NCBI RefSeq assembly: GCF_003851545.1
Contig: NZ_BHVX01000002.1
Span: 310,001-374,000, forward strand
Length of the DNA: 64,000 nucleotides
Source of the DNA: Ralstonia sp. SET104
Lineage (GTDB): Bacteria > Pseudomonadota > Gammaproteobacteria > Burkholderiales > Burkholderiaceae
Direction: 5' to 3'
Shown here: positions 40,581-59,691 of the stretch, piece by piece
Layout of the letters: every line of letters starts with the position of its first letter
Numbering within the stretch: the first letter of the stretch is position 1
Made by a program: the position numbers and the translations under genes
Notes under the pieces: generated by a model
What the model was told of the DNA's origin: nothing
Databases searched by the model: none
What the model saw: the letters and a program-made list of their open reading frames with translations, nothing else

Positions 40581-40946
40581 ATGACCCGCGCACTCACACT
40601 CCTCACGCTGCTGTGTGCGCTAGCACTGACGGTAACGGCCTGCGACCGCCGCCCATCCCCATCCAACCCGCCCACTCCGCAAACGTCAAAAGCCGAAAGA
40701 GCCGCTGCCGCGCTAGCCCTGGCCGCCGCAGATTTCAAGTGCCCGTCGCCATCAGCCCGCTTCATGATCGACGACGGCACGAACCGCGGCCCCAAGCAAC
40801 CTGTGCGCACCAACTGCACCACCGCCTACGCTACCTGCGACGCCCAGTCGCAGGCCGTCTTCGACCACTGCCCGAGCGGCCAGGTGTTCGACAAACGTTT
40901 CGGTATTTGCGTCGTGAAAGACGCGTGTGACGAGGTGACGTCCTGA
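40581..40946 (+). CDS. Small lipoprotein with a chitin-binding type 2 (CBM14/peritrophin-A)-like module
   Basis: A 121-residue exported protein. Residues 1-21 form a lipoprotein signal with lipobox TVTAC (Cys21), followed by a Pro/Ser-rich linker. The mature part has six cysteines at 54, 79, 86, 97, 110 and 116, and the end HCPSGQVFDKRFGIC resembles the peritrophin-A/CBM14 signature (C-P-x-G-x-x-F-D). Spacing after the second cysteine (6, 10, 12, 5) fits the family; the first gap (24) is longer than usual. CBM14 modules bind chitin and are mainly animal and viral, so this is a prediction from pattern only. It is not obviously linked to the upstream peptidase cluster. Confidence 0.6.
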   Translation: MTRALTLLTLLCALALTVTACDRRPSPSNPPTPQTSKAERAAAALALAAADFKCPSPSARFMIDDGTNRGPKQPVRTNCTTAYATCDAQSQAVFDHCPSGQVFDKRFGICVVKDACDEVTS

Positions 40947-41200
40947 GTTTCCAACCCCACACGTCGGGTCCGGAACGTCATTGATGGGGTTCAGAACTGC
41001 AACCGCCGCGTTCCGAACCGCGCACTCGGTGTTCATGAACGCCAACTGCCGGGTTCAGAACTTCAATGATGGGGTTCCGAAGCCGCGAAAAGGGGTTCAA
41101 AACATCACCCACGGAGTCGGGAACCGCAAGTGAGCGGTCCCGAACGCCGAACGTTGCGTTCCGGAACCCTGAATGCGGTGTTCAGAACGCCACGCCGTGC
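40947..41200. repeat. 12-copy tandem array of GTTC-N-GAAC dyads, 21-bp period
   Basis: Twelve units begin at 40947, 40968, 40989, 41010, 41031, 41053, 41074, 41095, 41116, 41137, 41158 and 41180. Each starts with a nine-base core close to GTTCNGAAC (for example GTTCAGAAC three times, GTTCCGAAC, GTCCCGAAC) followed by a 12-base spacer that varies widely. Two units (41031, 41158) have a ten-base core and are 22 bases long. The array starts at the base after the lipoprotein stop codon and ends 25 bases before the prmB stop. The constant two-turn spacing and conserved dyad suggest a protein-binding array. Confidence 0.85.
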
Positions 41201-41225
41201 GCTTTCTACTGCGTTTTCTATTGCG

Positions 41226-42122
41226 TTAGAGAGCTTCGCGCGTAACCAGGAACACCTGATCTTCCCCCGCACTGGTCGGTAGCCAGACCAGATCAAGATC
41301 CGGGAACGCGGCTTCCACGTTCTCGCGCTCGTTGCCGATCTCCACCACCAGCACACCATGCGGCTTCAGATGACGCGGTGCGTCGGCCAGGATACGGCGC
41401 ACGATGTCCATGCCGTCGGCACCACCGGCCAGGGCCATGTGCGGCTCGGCACGGTACTCGGGCGGCAGCGCCTGCATCGATGTTTCGTTCACATACGGCG
41501 GGTTCGTCAGGATCACGTCGTAGTGCACGCCGGGGGGCAGCGGCGCGTACAGGTCGCCCTCGTGCAAGCGGATGCGATCTTCCAGCTTGTAATCGTCGAC
41601 GTTGCGGTTGGCCACCACCAGCGCATCGGGCGAGAGGTCTACCGCATCGATCGTTGCATCGGGCCATTGCAGCGCGGCCAGGATCGACAGGCAGCCGGAA
41701 CCGGTGCACAGCTCCAGCACGTCGGTCGGGCCGTCTTCCTGATCGAGCCACGGTTCCAGCCCGTCTTCCAGCAATTCGCCGATGAAGCTGCGCGGCACGA
41801 TCACGCGCTCGTCAACGTAGAAGCGCATGCCGTGCATGAACGCCTCGTGCGTGATGTAGGCGGCGGGCACGCGGTCGACGGCGCGGCGTTCGATCACTTT
41901 CAGCACGGCGGCCACTTCTTCGGGCAGCAGGCGGGCGTCCATGAACGGCTCCAGCGTGTCGATGGGCAGGTGCAGCGTGTGCAGGATCAGGTAGGCGGCT
42001 TCGTCGTAGGCGTTCTCGCTGCCGTGGCCGAAGACGAGGCCGGCAGCGGTGAAGCGCGACACGGCGTAGCGCAGCAGGTCGCGCACCGTGGTGAACGGGT
42101 GGGAGGTGGGGAGTGTCGGCAT
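41226..42122 (-). CDS. prmB: Ribosomal protein L3 glutamine methyltransferase PrmB
   Basis: A 298-residue N5-glutamine methyltransferase. The SAM-binding region DVLELCTGSGCLSILAAL and the catalytic VILTNPPYVNE (NPPY) are clear, and the N-terminal domain around FGHGSENAYDEAAYLILHTL is PrmB-like rather than PrmC-like. It methylates Gln150 of L3 in E. coli. The ATG at 42122 or 42128 can serve as start. It lies downstream of the dap genes on the same strand; 314 bases separate it from dapE, and a long hairpin lies in that gap. Confidence 0.93.
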   Translation of the reverse strand: MPTLPTSHPFTTVRDLLRYAVSRFTAAGLVFGHGSENAYDEAAYLILHTLHLPIDTLEPFMDARLLPEEVAAVLKVIERRAVDRVPAAYITHEAFMHGMRFYVDERVIVPRSFIGELLEDGLEPWLDQEDGPTDVLELCTGSGCLSILAALQWPDATIDAVDLSPDALVVANRNVDDYKLEDRIRLHEGDLYAPLPPGVHYDVILTNPPYVNETSMQALPPEYRAEPHMALAGGADGMDIVRRILADAPRHLKPHGVLVVEIGNERENVEAAFPDLDLVWLPTSAGEDQVFLVTREAL

Positions 42123-42180
42123 GGTCAACGTTGTTTCTTGTGTTGTGCGTACGCGGTTGGGTTTTACCTTGGTGGTGCGT

Positions 42181-42258: not shown

Positions 42259-42374
42259 AGATGGCGACCCATCCCTTGAATTTCTGTTGCAGGGAGGGGA
42301 AGGGGAAAACTCGCTGCGCTCAGACAGTTCCCCTTCCTTTTTCCTCCCTGCAACAGAAATTCAAGGCGCCATCT
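42259..42374. repeat. Long inverted-repeat hairpin between prmB and dapE
   Basis: Perfect 24-base arms lie at 42274-42297 and 42343-42366. Inside are perfect ten-base arms GGAAGGGGAA (42298-42307) and TTCCCCTTCC (42328-42337), leaving a 20-base loop and a five-T bulge. Outside, AGATGGCG (42259-42266) pairs with CGCCATCT (42367-42374) after a seven-base bulge. In total 42 base pairs can form. It has no T-tail, so it is not a standard terminator; it looks like a small palindromic or MITE-like element. Confidence 0.8.
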
Positions 42375-57906: not shown

Positions 57907-59691
57907 TCAGAACTTCTCGAACGGCCCCAGGAAGCGCCACTGACCGACCGGCAGGTCGCCCAGCACGATGCTGCCCATGCGGATGCGCTTAAGGCCCACC
58001 ACATCCAGACCCACCTGTTCGCACATGCGGCGGATCTGACGCTTCTTGCCTTCGCGCAGCACAAAGCGCAACTGCTCTTCGTTCTGCCAGCTCACCTTTG
58101 CGGGCTTGAGTTGTTCGCCATCGAGCGACAGGCCAAAGCGCAGCTTCTCCATCAGCTCTTCCGGGAAGACCTTGGAGATGTCGCGCTCAACCAGCCCATC
58201 CGGCGAATCCCACACCACACGCACCAGGTATTCCTTCTCAACGGTCGAATCCTCGCCGATCAGGTGGCGTGCCACGCGGCCGTCTTGCGTCAACACCAGC
58301 AAGCCGGTGGAGTCGATATCGAGTCGACCGGCGGGTGCCAATGCCTTGCGCTGCCACGGCGCAAAGCGCTTGCGCGTCGGGTCTGCCTCCCACTGGTTTT
58401 CCGGCACAAACAGCGAAACGGCCGGCTGGTAACCGTCTTCCGCCTGACCCGATACGTAGCCGACCGGCTTGTGCATCAGCACGGTCACGCGCTCGCCCTG
58501 CTCAGAGCGCGCCGACTGATGGATTTCGATGATCGCATCCGGTTTGACGCGTGAACCCAGTTCGGTGACCGGCTCGCCGTCCACCAGCACCCAGCCGCGC
58601 GGGATCCACTCATCGGCCTCGCGGCGCGAGCACAGACCCAGCTCGGACATGCGCTTGGACAGGCGTACCAGCCCGGCCGAGTCGGTTTGCGGCGCCTGGT
58701 GCGGTGCCTGCTCTTCGGCCCGGCGCGGAGCGCGTTCCTCGCGTTCACGCTCGGGCCGTTGCGGACGTGCAGGACGATCTTCGAAACGACGCGGTGGACG
58801 GTCGTTTTCAAAGCGTCGCGGCGGGCGTTCATCATCAAAGCGTCGCGGGGGGCGTTGGTCGCCATCACGACGCGGCGCGCGCTGATCGTCGCCATAGCGT
58901 CGCGGGCGCTCGTCATCGAAACGACGGGGCGGGCGCTGATCGTCGCCGAACCTGCGTGGCGGGCGTTCATCATCAAAGCGACGCGGAGGACGTTGGTCGC
59001 CGTCCCGACGCGGCGCGCGCTGATCGTCGCCATAGCGTCGCGGGCGCTCGTCGTCGAATCGACGCGGCGCGCGCTGATCGTCGCCGAACTTGCGTGGCGG
59101 ACGCTCGTCATCGAAACGACGCGGAGGACGTTGGTCGCCATCCCGACGCGGCGCGCGCTGATCGTCGCCATAGCGGCGCGGACGCTCGTCGTCGAATCGG
59201 CGAGGCGGGCGCTGATCGTCGCCGAACCTGCGCGGTGGACGCTCATCGTCAAACCGGCGCGGCGGGCGGTCTTCGTCGAAACGGCGAGGCGGGCGATCTT
59301 CGAGGCGTCGTGGGGGGCGCTGATCGTCGTTGAATCGGCGTGGCGGGCGCTCGTCATCAAAGCGCCGGGGCGGGCGATCACCTTGCACGCGTCGCGGTTT
59401 GGCGTCGCGCGTTTGACCCTCATCGTCGCGGCGCGGCGGGCGTGCTGGGCGCGGCGGCTTACCGGCACCTTCCTCCGGCTTGGGGCGACGCTGCGATGGG
59501 CGCAGCGGCTGGCGTTCGCGGTTCAGGTCGGACGAGCGCAGTGGCTTGCCGGTCGAACGCACGGCATTGCCTTCGTCGTCGCGGCGCACGCCGAGCGTGG
59601 CGCGCTTGCCCGGACGGGTGGCGCGCTGAGTCGGGTCGCTGGCGCCGCGCTTGCCGTCGTCGCCGGGGAAATCATCGGAATCGGTAGTCAT
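57907..59691 (-). CDS. rluB: RsuA/RluB-family pseudouridine synthase with long Arg/Pro/Asp-rich N-terminal tract
   Basis: A 594-residue protein. The C-terminal ~250 residues form a pseudouridine synthase: an S4 domain (LSKRMSELGLCSRREADEWI), the catalytic aspartate motif GRLDIDSTGLLVLTQDG and the end KKRQIRRMCEQVGLDVVGLKR. RluB modifies U2605 of 23S rRNA; assignment to RluB rather than RluE/RluF is by overall similarity. Residues ~1-335 are charged and disordered, dominated by PPRRFDDER/GDDQ repeats. The ATG at 59691 is 25 bases after the glnD stop on the same strand. Confidence 0.88.
   Translation of the reverse strand: MTTDSDDFPGDDGKRGASDPTQRATRPGKRATLGVRRDDEGNAVRSTGKPLRSSDLNRERQPLRPSQRRPKPEEGAGKPPRPARPPRRDDEGQTRDAKPRRVQGDRPPRRFDDERPPRRFNDDQRPPRRLEDRPPRRFDEDRPPRRFDDERPPRRFGDDQRPPRRFDDERPRRYGDDQRAPRRDGDQRPPRRFDDERPPRKFGDDQRAPRRFDDERPRRYGDDQRAPRRDGDQRPPRRFDDERPPRRFGDDQRPPRRFDDERPRRYGDDQRAPRRDGDQRPPRRFDDERPPRRFENDRPPRRFEDRPARPQRPEREREERAPRRAEEQAPHQAPQTDSAGLVRLSKRMSELGLCSRREADEWIPRGWVLVDGEPVTELGSRVKPDAIIEIHQSARSEQGERVTVLMHKPVGYVSGQAEDGYQPAVSLFVPENQWEADPTRKRFAPWQRKALAPAGRLDIDSTGLLVLTQDGRVARHLIGEDSTVEKEYLVRVVWDSPDGLVERDISKVFPEELMEKLRFGLSLDGEQLKPAKVSWQNEEQLRFVLREGKKRQIRRMCEQVGLDVVGLKRIRMGSIVLGDLPVGQWRFLGPFEKF
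58768..59376 (-). repeat. Arg/Pro/Asp-rich coding repeats in rluB, including 3 x 138 bp
   Basis: This part of rluB encodes about 200 residues built from ~9-10-residue units such as RPPRRFDDE and RPPRRFGDDQ. Within it, three in-phase copies of a 46-residue (138-bp) higher-order unit occupy 58855-59268, protein residues 142-279, with a partial fourth after them. The copies differ at only a few residues (for example PPRKFGDDQRA in the second). Confidence 0.9.

Follow-up and report, generated by a model that had tools for sequence, protein, structure and literature searches.

Dyad-unit arrays near gene ends in Ralstonia: candidate docking strips for a putative dimeric DNA-binding protein

What is the run of small palindromes that occupies the gap between two convergent genes of Ralstonia sp. 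SET104, and what might it be for? The window, that is, the whole stretch of DNA analysed, comprises 64,000 nucleotides of contig NZ_BHVX01000002.1 (GCF_003851545.1, positions 310,001 to 374,000), and the dyad-unit array lies at 40947..41188 of it. The array has no strand, being alike when read from either one, and each of its twelve units consists of a core close to GTTCNGAAC and a spacer of about 12 bp. Exact GTTCNGAAC accounts for 4 of the 12 cores, and two of these, GTTCAGAAC and GTTCCGAAC, which follow one another at a distance of 21 bp (40989..41018), form the local pair of the exact pattern. Nine of the eleven steps measure 21 bp and two measure 22 bp (21, 21, 21, 22, 21, 21, 21, 21, 21, 22 and 21 in order); both longer steps are due to 10-bp cores, namely GTTCATGAAC at 41031..41040 and GTTCCGGAAC at 41158..41167. 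The chain score of the array is 28, as compared to 3.0 for the next best chain in the window under the same scoring and to a maximum of 6.0 when the window was shuffled 200 times with its dinucleotides preserved. All twelve dyad units claimed by an earlier, sequence-only reading of this DNA were recovered, and the array is confirmed to be real.

The array also fills the gap between its neighbours, as that reading had described. It starts at the base following the stop codon of a small lipoprotein-like gene on the + strand (40581..40946, 121 aa) and ends 37 bp short of the stop codon of prmB (41226..42128), which converges on it from the − strand. A match to TIGR03533 confirms prmB as the gene for the 50S ribosomal protein L3 N5-glutamine methyltransferase, with 407.9 bits where the cut-off is 229.7, and the lipoprotein-like protein matched no family in an NCBIfam search at E up to 1e-10. 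Neither a sigma-70-like promoter nor an intrinsic terminator (GC-rich hairpin plus T run) was found between 40500 and 41600. A 12-bp repeat, TGCGTTTTCTAC, present in 2.5 copies at 41198-41227, separates the array from the prmB stop. A stretch between prmB and the next gene, at 42271-42368 (L001:2783-2880), displays sub-threshold matches to several microRNA families on both strands and is therefore probably a strong inverted repeat, which may belong to the dispersed intergenic repeats adjoining arrays in L191 and L200. Farther along the window, at 58781-59376, the DNA is GC-rich and densely repetitive, the periods being 27, 57 and 138 bp; this region is perhaps inside a coding sequence.

The occurrence of such arrays was monitored in the source genome (4.8 Mb, 58 contigs), in the genus and beyond. 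The exact two-unit pattern is present 8 times in the source genome as compared to 0 for the reversed control, and 40 times as compared to 2 when two mismatches are allowed. A sequence-only profile built from 50 four-unit array stretches revealed eight clear arrays and one weak single match in this genome, and it matches all 16 genus genomes examined. The relatives, which the earlier reading had proposed to scan for arrays of the same type, thus carry them genus-wide. The exact two-unit pattern occurs in 15 of the 16 genus genomes, G004 being devoid of it, and in 0 of 104 others; G004 and G005 are among the species in which intact arrays are few. Outside the genus, the profile gives one or two weak matches in 3 of 104 genomes at E up to 0.001, and 0 matches at E up to 1e-6 in 382 genomes of 24 other genera of the family; lag autocorrelation detected no array behind prmB in sister genera (28 loci, 1.5-kb flanks). 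A regulon of isolated cores was considered and rejected, as the exact core numbers 51 in the source genome and 55 in the reversed control, with no excess of single cores; of the 50 listed among these 51 cores, 26 lie inside the eight arrays and 24 outside.

A scan of 79 loci provided 68 arrays with 767 cores, 67 loci giving at least one array. The 12 loci without an array comprise seven prmB loci, among which that of G006 holds an array with other letters, and five of 56 exact-pair places. The description of the units as near-palindromic cores with differing spacers stands as to the cores and is to be amended as to the spacers, which over the 68 arrays are not random and carry weaker dyad information. 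Spacer positions 2-4 and 9-11 hold 0.7-0.9 bits each with symmetric preferences (YSR....YSR). Furthermore, the purine/pyrimidine autocorrelation peaks at lags 7, 14, 21, 28, 35 and 42, with values of 0.69, 0.68 and 0.78 at the first three and minima of about 0.32-0.37 between, so that a 7-bp period is present. Taken with the symmetric spacer preferences, this period defines the unit as three YYYNRRR heptads, a strong GTTC-N-GAAC with fixed letters and two weaker ones in the spacer. Other core letters, GCTCNGAGC-like, are found in L175, L201 and L206. Inspection by eye shows near-identical neighbouring units in L206, in L175 and in other arrays like them. In L206, L201, L175 and L207 near-identical 21-bp duplications expand the array, several of them with GCTCAGAGC-type cores; these expansions are recent slippage within the same array family. 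In 14 arrays without recent duplication, the likeness of neighbouring units (0.424) does not exceed that of non-adjacent units (0.442).

The helical phasing that had been claimed for the 21-bp step is borne out in a stricter form than first described, as evident from the even number of 22-bp leaps and a mean step of 21.17 bp. Among 49 arrays without recent duplication, 36 consist of 12-14 units and 34 span 241-243 or 262-264 bp. Of the steps in these arrays, 415 measure 21 bp and 84 measure 22 bp, which corresponds to 10.58 bp per turn, with a leap in about one of six steps; 19 loci whose arrays are recently duplicated, short or written in other core letters are omitted from the span and step means. 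In the 38 non-duplicated arrays of at least 10 steps there are two leaps in 27, three in 9 and one in 2, and the variance of the leap count is 0.22 as compared to an expected 1.79, a value as low being reached in 0 of 20,000 simulations. These 38 arrays repeat a first test on 16, of which 4 came from the place at a rhodanese-like gene and 3 from prmB. When each place contributes one array, P is at most 0.038 (10 places, 100 random draws). Evenness is weaker, with a P of 0.002 over 48 arrays, once ten long, recently duplicated arrays with none to two leap steps each are added.

Divergence between species further distinguishes the core from the spacer, as the sequence-only reading had predicted from a dyad that is kept and a spacer that is not. 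Over ten loci with one species pair each, the ortholog groups and pairs being hand-picked, 52 of 720 outer dyad bases (eight per core) differ, as compared to 221 of 1093 spacer bases (Fisher 5e-15), and the central core base, with 23 of 90 differing, is not different from the spacer. The outer core hence changes about three times slower than either the spacer or the centre base; each pair was aligned at whichever unit shift gave the fewest spacer differences, which is conservative for this contrast. Equal divergence of core and spacer had been named beforehand as the result that would count against selection on the dyad, and the divergence found over the ten loci is unequal. Taken singly, 7 of the 10 loci fall below 0.05, the others being Z, W and L187/L218; at Z there is no difference (core 2 of 72, spacer 2 of 109), and the U and L186/L219 pairs comprise four units each. 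In eight ortholog groups, the prmB group of which omits the prmB arrays of G005, G006 and G012, variable columns number 2 of 99 at c9, 8 of 99 at c8 and 10 of 98 at c1 among the outer positions, and 48 of 99 at the centre, c5. The prmB locus was picked through the protein, independently of the core pattern, and six species with an alignable array differ there by 0.00-0.11 in the core, 0.03-0.31 in the spacer and 0.03-0.23 at fourfold sites of prmB. Since the spacer is slower than fourfold sites in some of these pairs (e.g. 0.08 vs 0.23 for G002-G007), it is not plainly neutral.

An alignable version of the prmB array is common to these six relatives. The array in the window differs from their version by 0.14-0.21 in the core, with 0.23-0.32 at fourfold sites of prmB, and by 0.49-0.58 in the spacer at the best unit shift, as compared to 0.60 for unrelated arrays. 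Its top-scoring match among all other arrays is the same-locus array of G007, a weak match of 6 units at 0.62, and a three-unit match to L208 reaches 0.67. Both prmB and the lipoprotein neighbour (assigned by eye) are kept without an array in G001 and G013, and prmB has a different neighbour and no array in G003, G004, G008 and G009. The array at this locus therefore turns over, which qualifies the earlier reading: six relatives keep an alignable array, G001 and G013 have lost it, and the version in the window is nearly unalignable with that of the six. Behind prmB of G006 (L159, from the prmB stop on) there is a 23-unit array with steps of 21/22 bp in which a GC.C.R.GC core replaces GTTC; the purine/pyrimidine plan is kept, with a clear 7-bp autocorrelation. 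At the rhodanese-like gene, a label that rests on NCBIfam matches below cut-off, about two array units are left in G004 and none in G001. The loss or near-unalignability of arrays while the neighbouring genes persist suggests that array places outlast array sequences. The possibility that the arrays are copies of one 13-unit element was ruled out, as their spacers lack unit-by-unit homology between loci; the unit-index likeness is 0.408 at shift 0 and 0.393-0.407 at other shifts.

The nature of the constrained molecule was addressed by comparing pairing, folding and substitution patterns, which lend no support to the earlier suggestion of a transcribed set of small hairpins. The pairing at six symmetric spacer pairs ranges from 0.07 below expectation to 0.06 above it and shows no consistent excess; pair 3-10 is at 0.487 against an expected 0.537, and pairs 4-9 and 6-7 are slightly above expectation (+0.05 and +0.06). 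Predicted folding of 13 arrays on both strands is strong when compared to dinucleotide shuffles (z −2.1 to −10.0), whereas against shuffles of the spacer columns between units z is −1.5 to 2.0 in 25 of 26 strands, the exception being the + strand of L216, for which folding is stronger than in the shuffled versions (z −2.6). Core changes oriented by gene, from 33 of 35 codirectional arrays, comprise 60 T>C and 68 A>G; RNA pairing should favour A>G, and these similar numbers therefore give no G.U signature. At core positions 2 and 8, 648 paired cases are observed as compared to 568.7 expected, and this falls to 538 vs 523.3 without 13 of 67 loci that have tandem duplications or other core letters; a stem signal was rejected here, the covariation being mostly ascribed to arrays of a GCTC..GAGC dialect. 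A search of Rfam at E up to 1 over ten loci gave no match reaching the gathering score inside any array. One sub-threshold miRNA-family match overlaps the L139 array and another the L181 array. The lack of consistent spacer covariation, the strand-symmetric substitutions and the column-shuffle folding make the constraint look like one that acts on double-stranded DNA and not on RNA.

The gene context of the arrays, based on gene calls by a GC3 heuristic, is convergent for 24 of 68, codirectional for 35 and divergent for 3, with 5 inside a called ORF and 1 unclassed. Among the 62 arrays with both neighbours, 42 have a gene 3' end within 50 bp and 6 have a 5' end within this distance. The convergent, codirectional and divergent counts of 21/32/3 for array gaps, as compared to 35/70/15 for other gaps in the same loci, indicate a weak convergent excess and a weak divergent deficit. 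A replacement of terminators by arrays was examined and rejected, as terminator-like hairpins are alike in frequency in convergent gaps with arrays (9 of 17) and without them (18 of 42). One array of the source genome lies between ureC and ureE, and an array of G013 adjoins the same ureE-side flank. Eight of ten flanking proteins in the source genome have family matches, none of them to replication or partition, and two are without a match; at a distance of 777 bp from the L186 array there is an ORF that looks ParA-like by eye. The interpretation offered by the earlier reading is supported in part, the partition or silencing role that it proposed being conjectural. The C4 antisense RNA is seen in immunity regions of P1/P4-like prophages, and several matches to it, at L178:2780-3823 and L204:1364-2397, adjoin one array, together with an isrK match in L178.

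A three-unit pattern was located at 118 loci at least, eight of the listed ones being Ralstonia or the same genomes; among the matches listed it is also found in Nostoc and relatives, Bacteroidales, Treponema, Planctomycetes, Pedobacter and Saccharothrix. Palindromic 21- or 22-bp arrays (L007-L124) were noted among the matches listed in Nostoc, Bacteroidales, Planctomycetes, Ignavibacteria and Pedobacter, and at 22 bp in Saccharothrix; on average, those of 21 bp have the YYYNRRR heptad plan in common. The second and third heptads of 80 distinct non-Ralstonia spacers, among the matches listed, fit YYYNRRR at 4.42 of 6, as compared to 1.3-1.5 at other offsets and to about 3.5 expected because the search fixes one position per heptad; these non-genus arrays were found via the core pattern. 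Since many of the non-Ralstonia arrays among the matches listed are near-identical repeats, their heptad plan may reflect how arrays grow rather than a common function.

The slow palindromic core, the strand symmetry and a period near two helical turns over 240-264 bp point to cooperative dimeric binding along one face of the helix. We assign a probability of about 0.5 to the reading of the array as a docking strip, on which a putative dimeric, palindrome-reading DNA-binding protein would line up with one dimer per two helical turns. Binding of such a protein, common to the genus, would be cooperative; in each unit it would contact the strong GTTC-N-GAAC heptad and have looser contacts with the other two, weaker YYYNRRR heptads. 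The filament formed just behind gene 3' ends would be of fixed length, and it might serve as a roadblock or topological barrier that insulates transcription units lying side by side, often in convergent orientation; this last step, the weakest, is a guess from the position of the arrays near gene ends. More tentatively, the arrays could be fixed-length, helically tuned strips, mostly of 12-14 dyads at 10.58 bp per turn, kept in phase by a 22-bp leap in about one of six steps and independently rewritten beside gene 3' ends, on which a genus-specific filament protein partitions the chromosome into insulated transcription units. A single protein of fixed specificity would not simply explain the arrays with other letters (L175, L201, L206 and the 23-unit array of G006).

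The same features have to be weighed against origins that would need no such protein. The arrays might be decayed heptamer minisatellites, generated by 7-nt slippage of self-complementary YYYNRRR, settling beside promoter-free stop codons and having no function of their own, an origin that we consider unlikely. It would account for the 7-bp purine/pyrimidine period, for recent duplications such as the near-identical 21-bp units of L206, and for the similar-looking 21-bp arrays in Nostoc, Bacteroidales, Planctomycetes and others among the matches listed; bacterial heptamer repeats are over-represented, and polymerase slippage has been proposed for them, in the part of PMC4692102 available. However, decay should strike core and spacer equally, and the core is about three times slower; slippage is not expected to produce even leap steps and a common length, nor are adjacent units more alike than distant ones.

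A DNA-wrapping or topology site, on which gyrase or an Lrp/HU-like protein would read bendability from pyrimidine-purine steps about every 7 bp and relieve supercoils at gene ends, seems quite improbable. The purine/pyrimidine order does survive a change of letters, as evident from the G006 prmB array and the autocorrelation, and both the mean period of 10.58 bp per turn and the position beside gene 3' ends, in 24 convergent and 35 codirectional of the 68 cases, would suit wrapping; the core letters, however, are kept between species at c1, c8 and c9, and the convergent excess and divergent deficit are only weak. A string of transcribed 3'-UTR hairpins, which would protect 3' ends or set operon ratios, is very improbable. 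The array between ureC and ureE, with its counterpart at the same flank in G013, would fit it, and the predicted folding is strong against dinucleotide shuffles, but the dyad consensus alone accounts for the fold, column shuffles fold equally in 25 of 26 strands, and neither consistent covariation nor G.U asymmetry is present. The docking-strip reading was also compared with systems already described.

REP, BIME and REPIN elements are extragenic palindromes scattered next to gene 3' ends and also inside operons; the REP unit is a longer hairpin and spreads by being copied. The Ralstonia arrays resemble them in being palindromes dispersed beside gene 3' ends, also in operons, and differ from them in not being copies of one sequence, as evident from the absence of unit-index homology, and in having no consistent compensatory stem pairing. 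In the 20-bp repeats of pSK41 ParR/parC and the heptads of the omega repressor, tandem sites lie about two turns apart and the bound dimers polymerise into a filament. By the working model, the Ralstonia arrays would work like these iteron and centromere operators, with palindromes or heptads in tandem at intervals of about two turns, whereas the eight arrays of the source genome are dispersed and adjoin, wherever a family match was obtained, ordinary genes of metabolism and transport.

The intergenic heptamer repeats GGGAATC of Xanthomonas and GGGGAYT of Nostoc have, in the part of PMC4692102 available, no known function; they lie close to stop codons when on the coding strand and close to start codons when on the opposite one, are capable of forming G-quadruplexes and are of variable length, and a Xanthomonas genome contains 183-186 of them. 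Within the same part of that source, the Ralstonia arrays resemble them in repeating every 7 bp, in occupying many intergenic places in a genome, which are often no more than 50 bp away from the end of an ORF and are the same between related species, and in being under-represented in divergent gaps (PMC4692102). As far as that part goes, the Ralstonia arrays differ in that three heptads form a higher unit of 21 bp with one strong palindromic core, and in their common length, 22-bp leaps, slow core and number of eight in the source genome. TAACTGA heptamers are the subject of a related report (PMC4679880, in the part available). No earlier description of the Ralstonia arrays was found in the portion of the open-licence literature surveyed.

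Tandem repeats of bacteria are usually regarded as noise left by slippage or used as markers for typing. In Ralstonia, non-homologous arrays common to the genus share their length, helical phase and slow core, so that sequence alone argues for an unrecognised nucleoprotein structure near gene ends. The ortholog sets, and the species without single arrays, provide natural experiments. The Ralstonia arrays thereby make testable what intergenic repeats of the heptamer type are for, and whether sequence-programmed insulators exist in bacteria.
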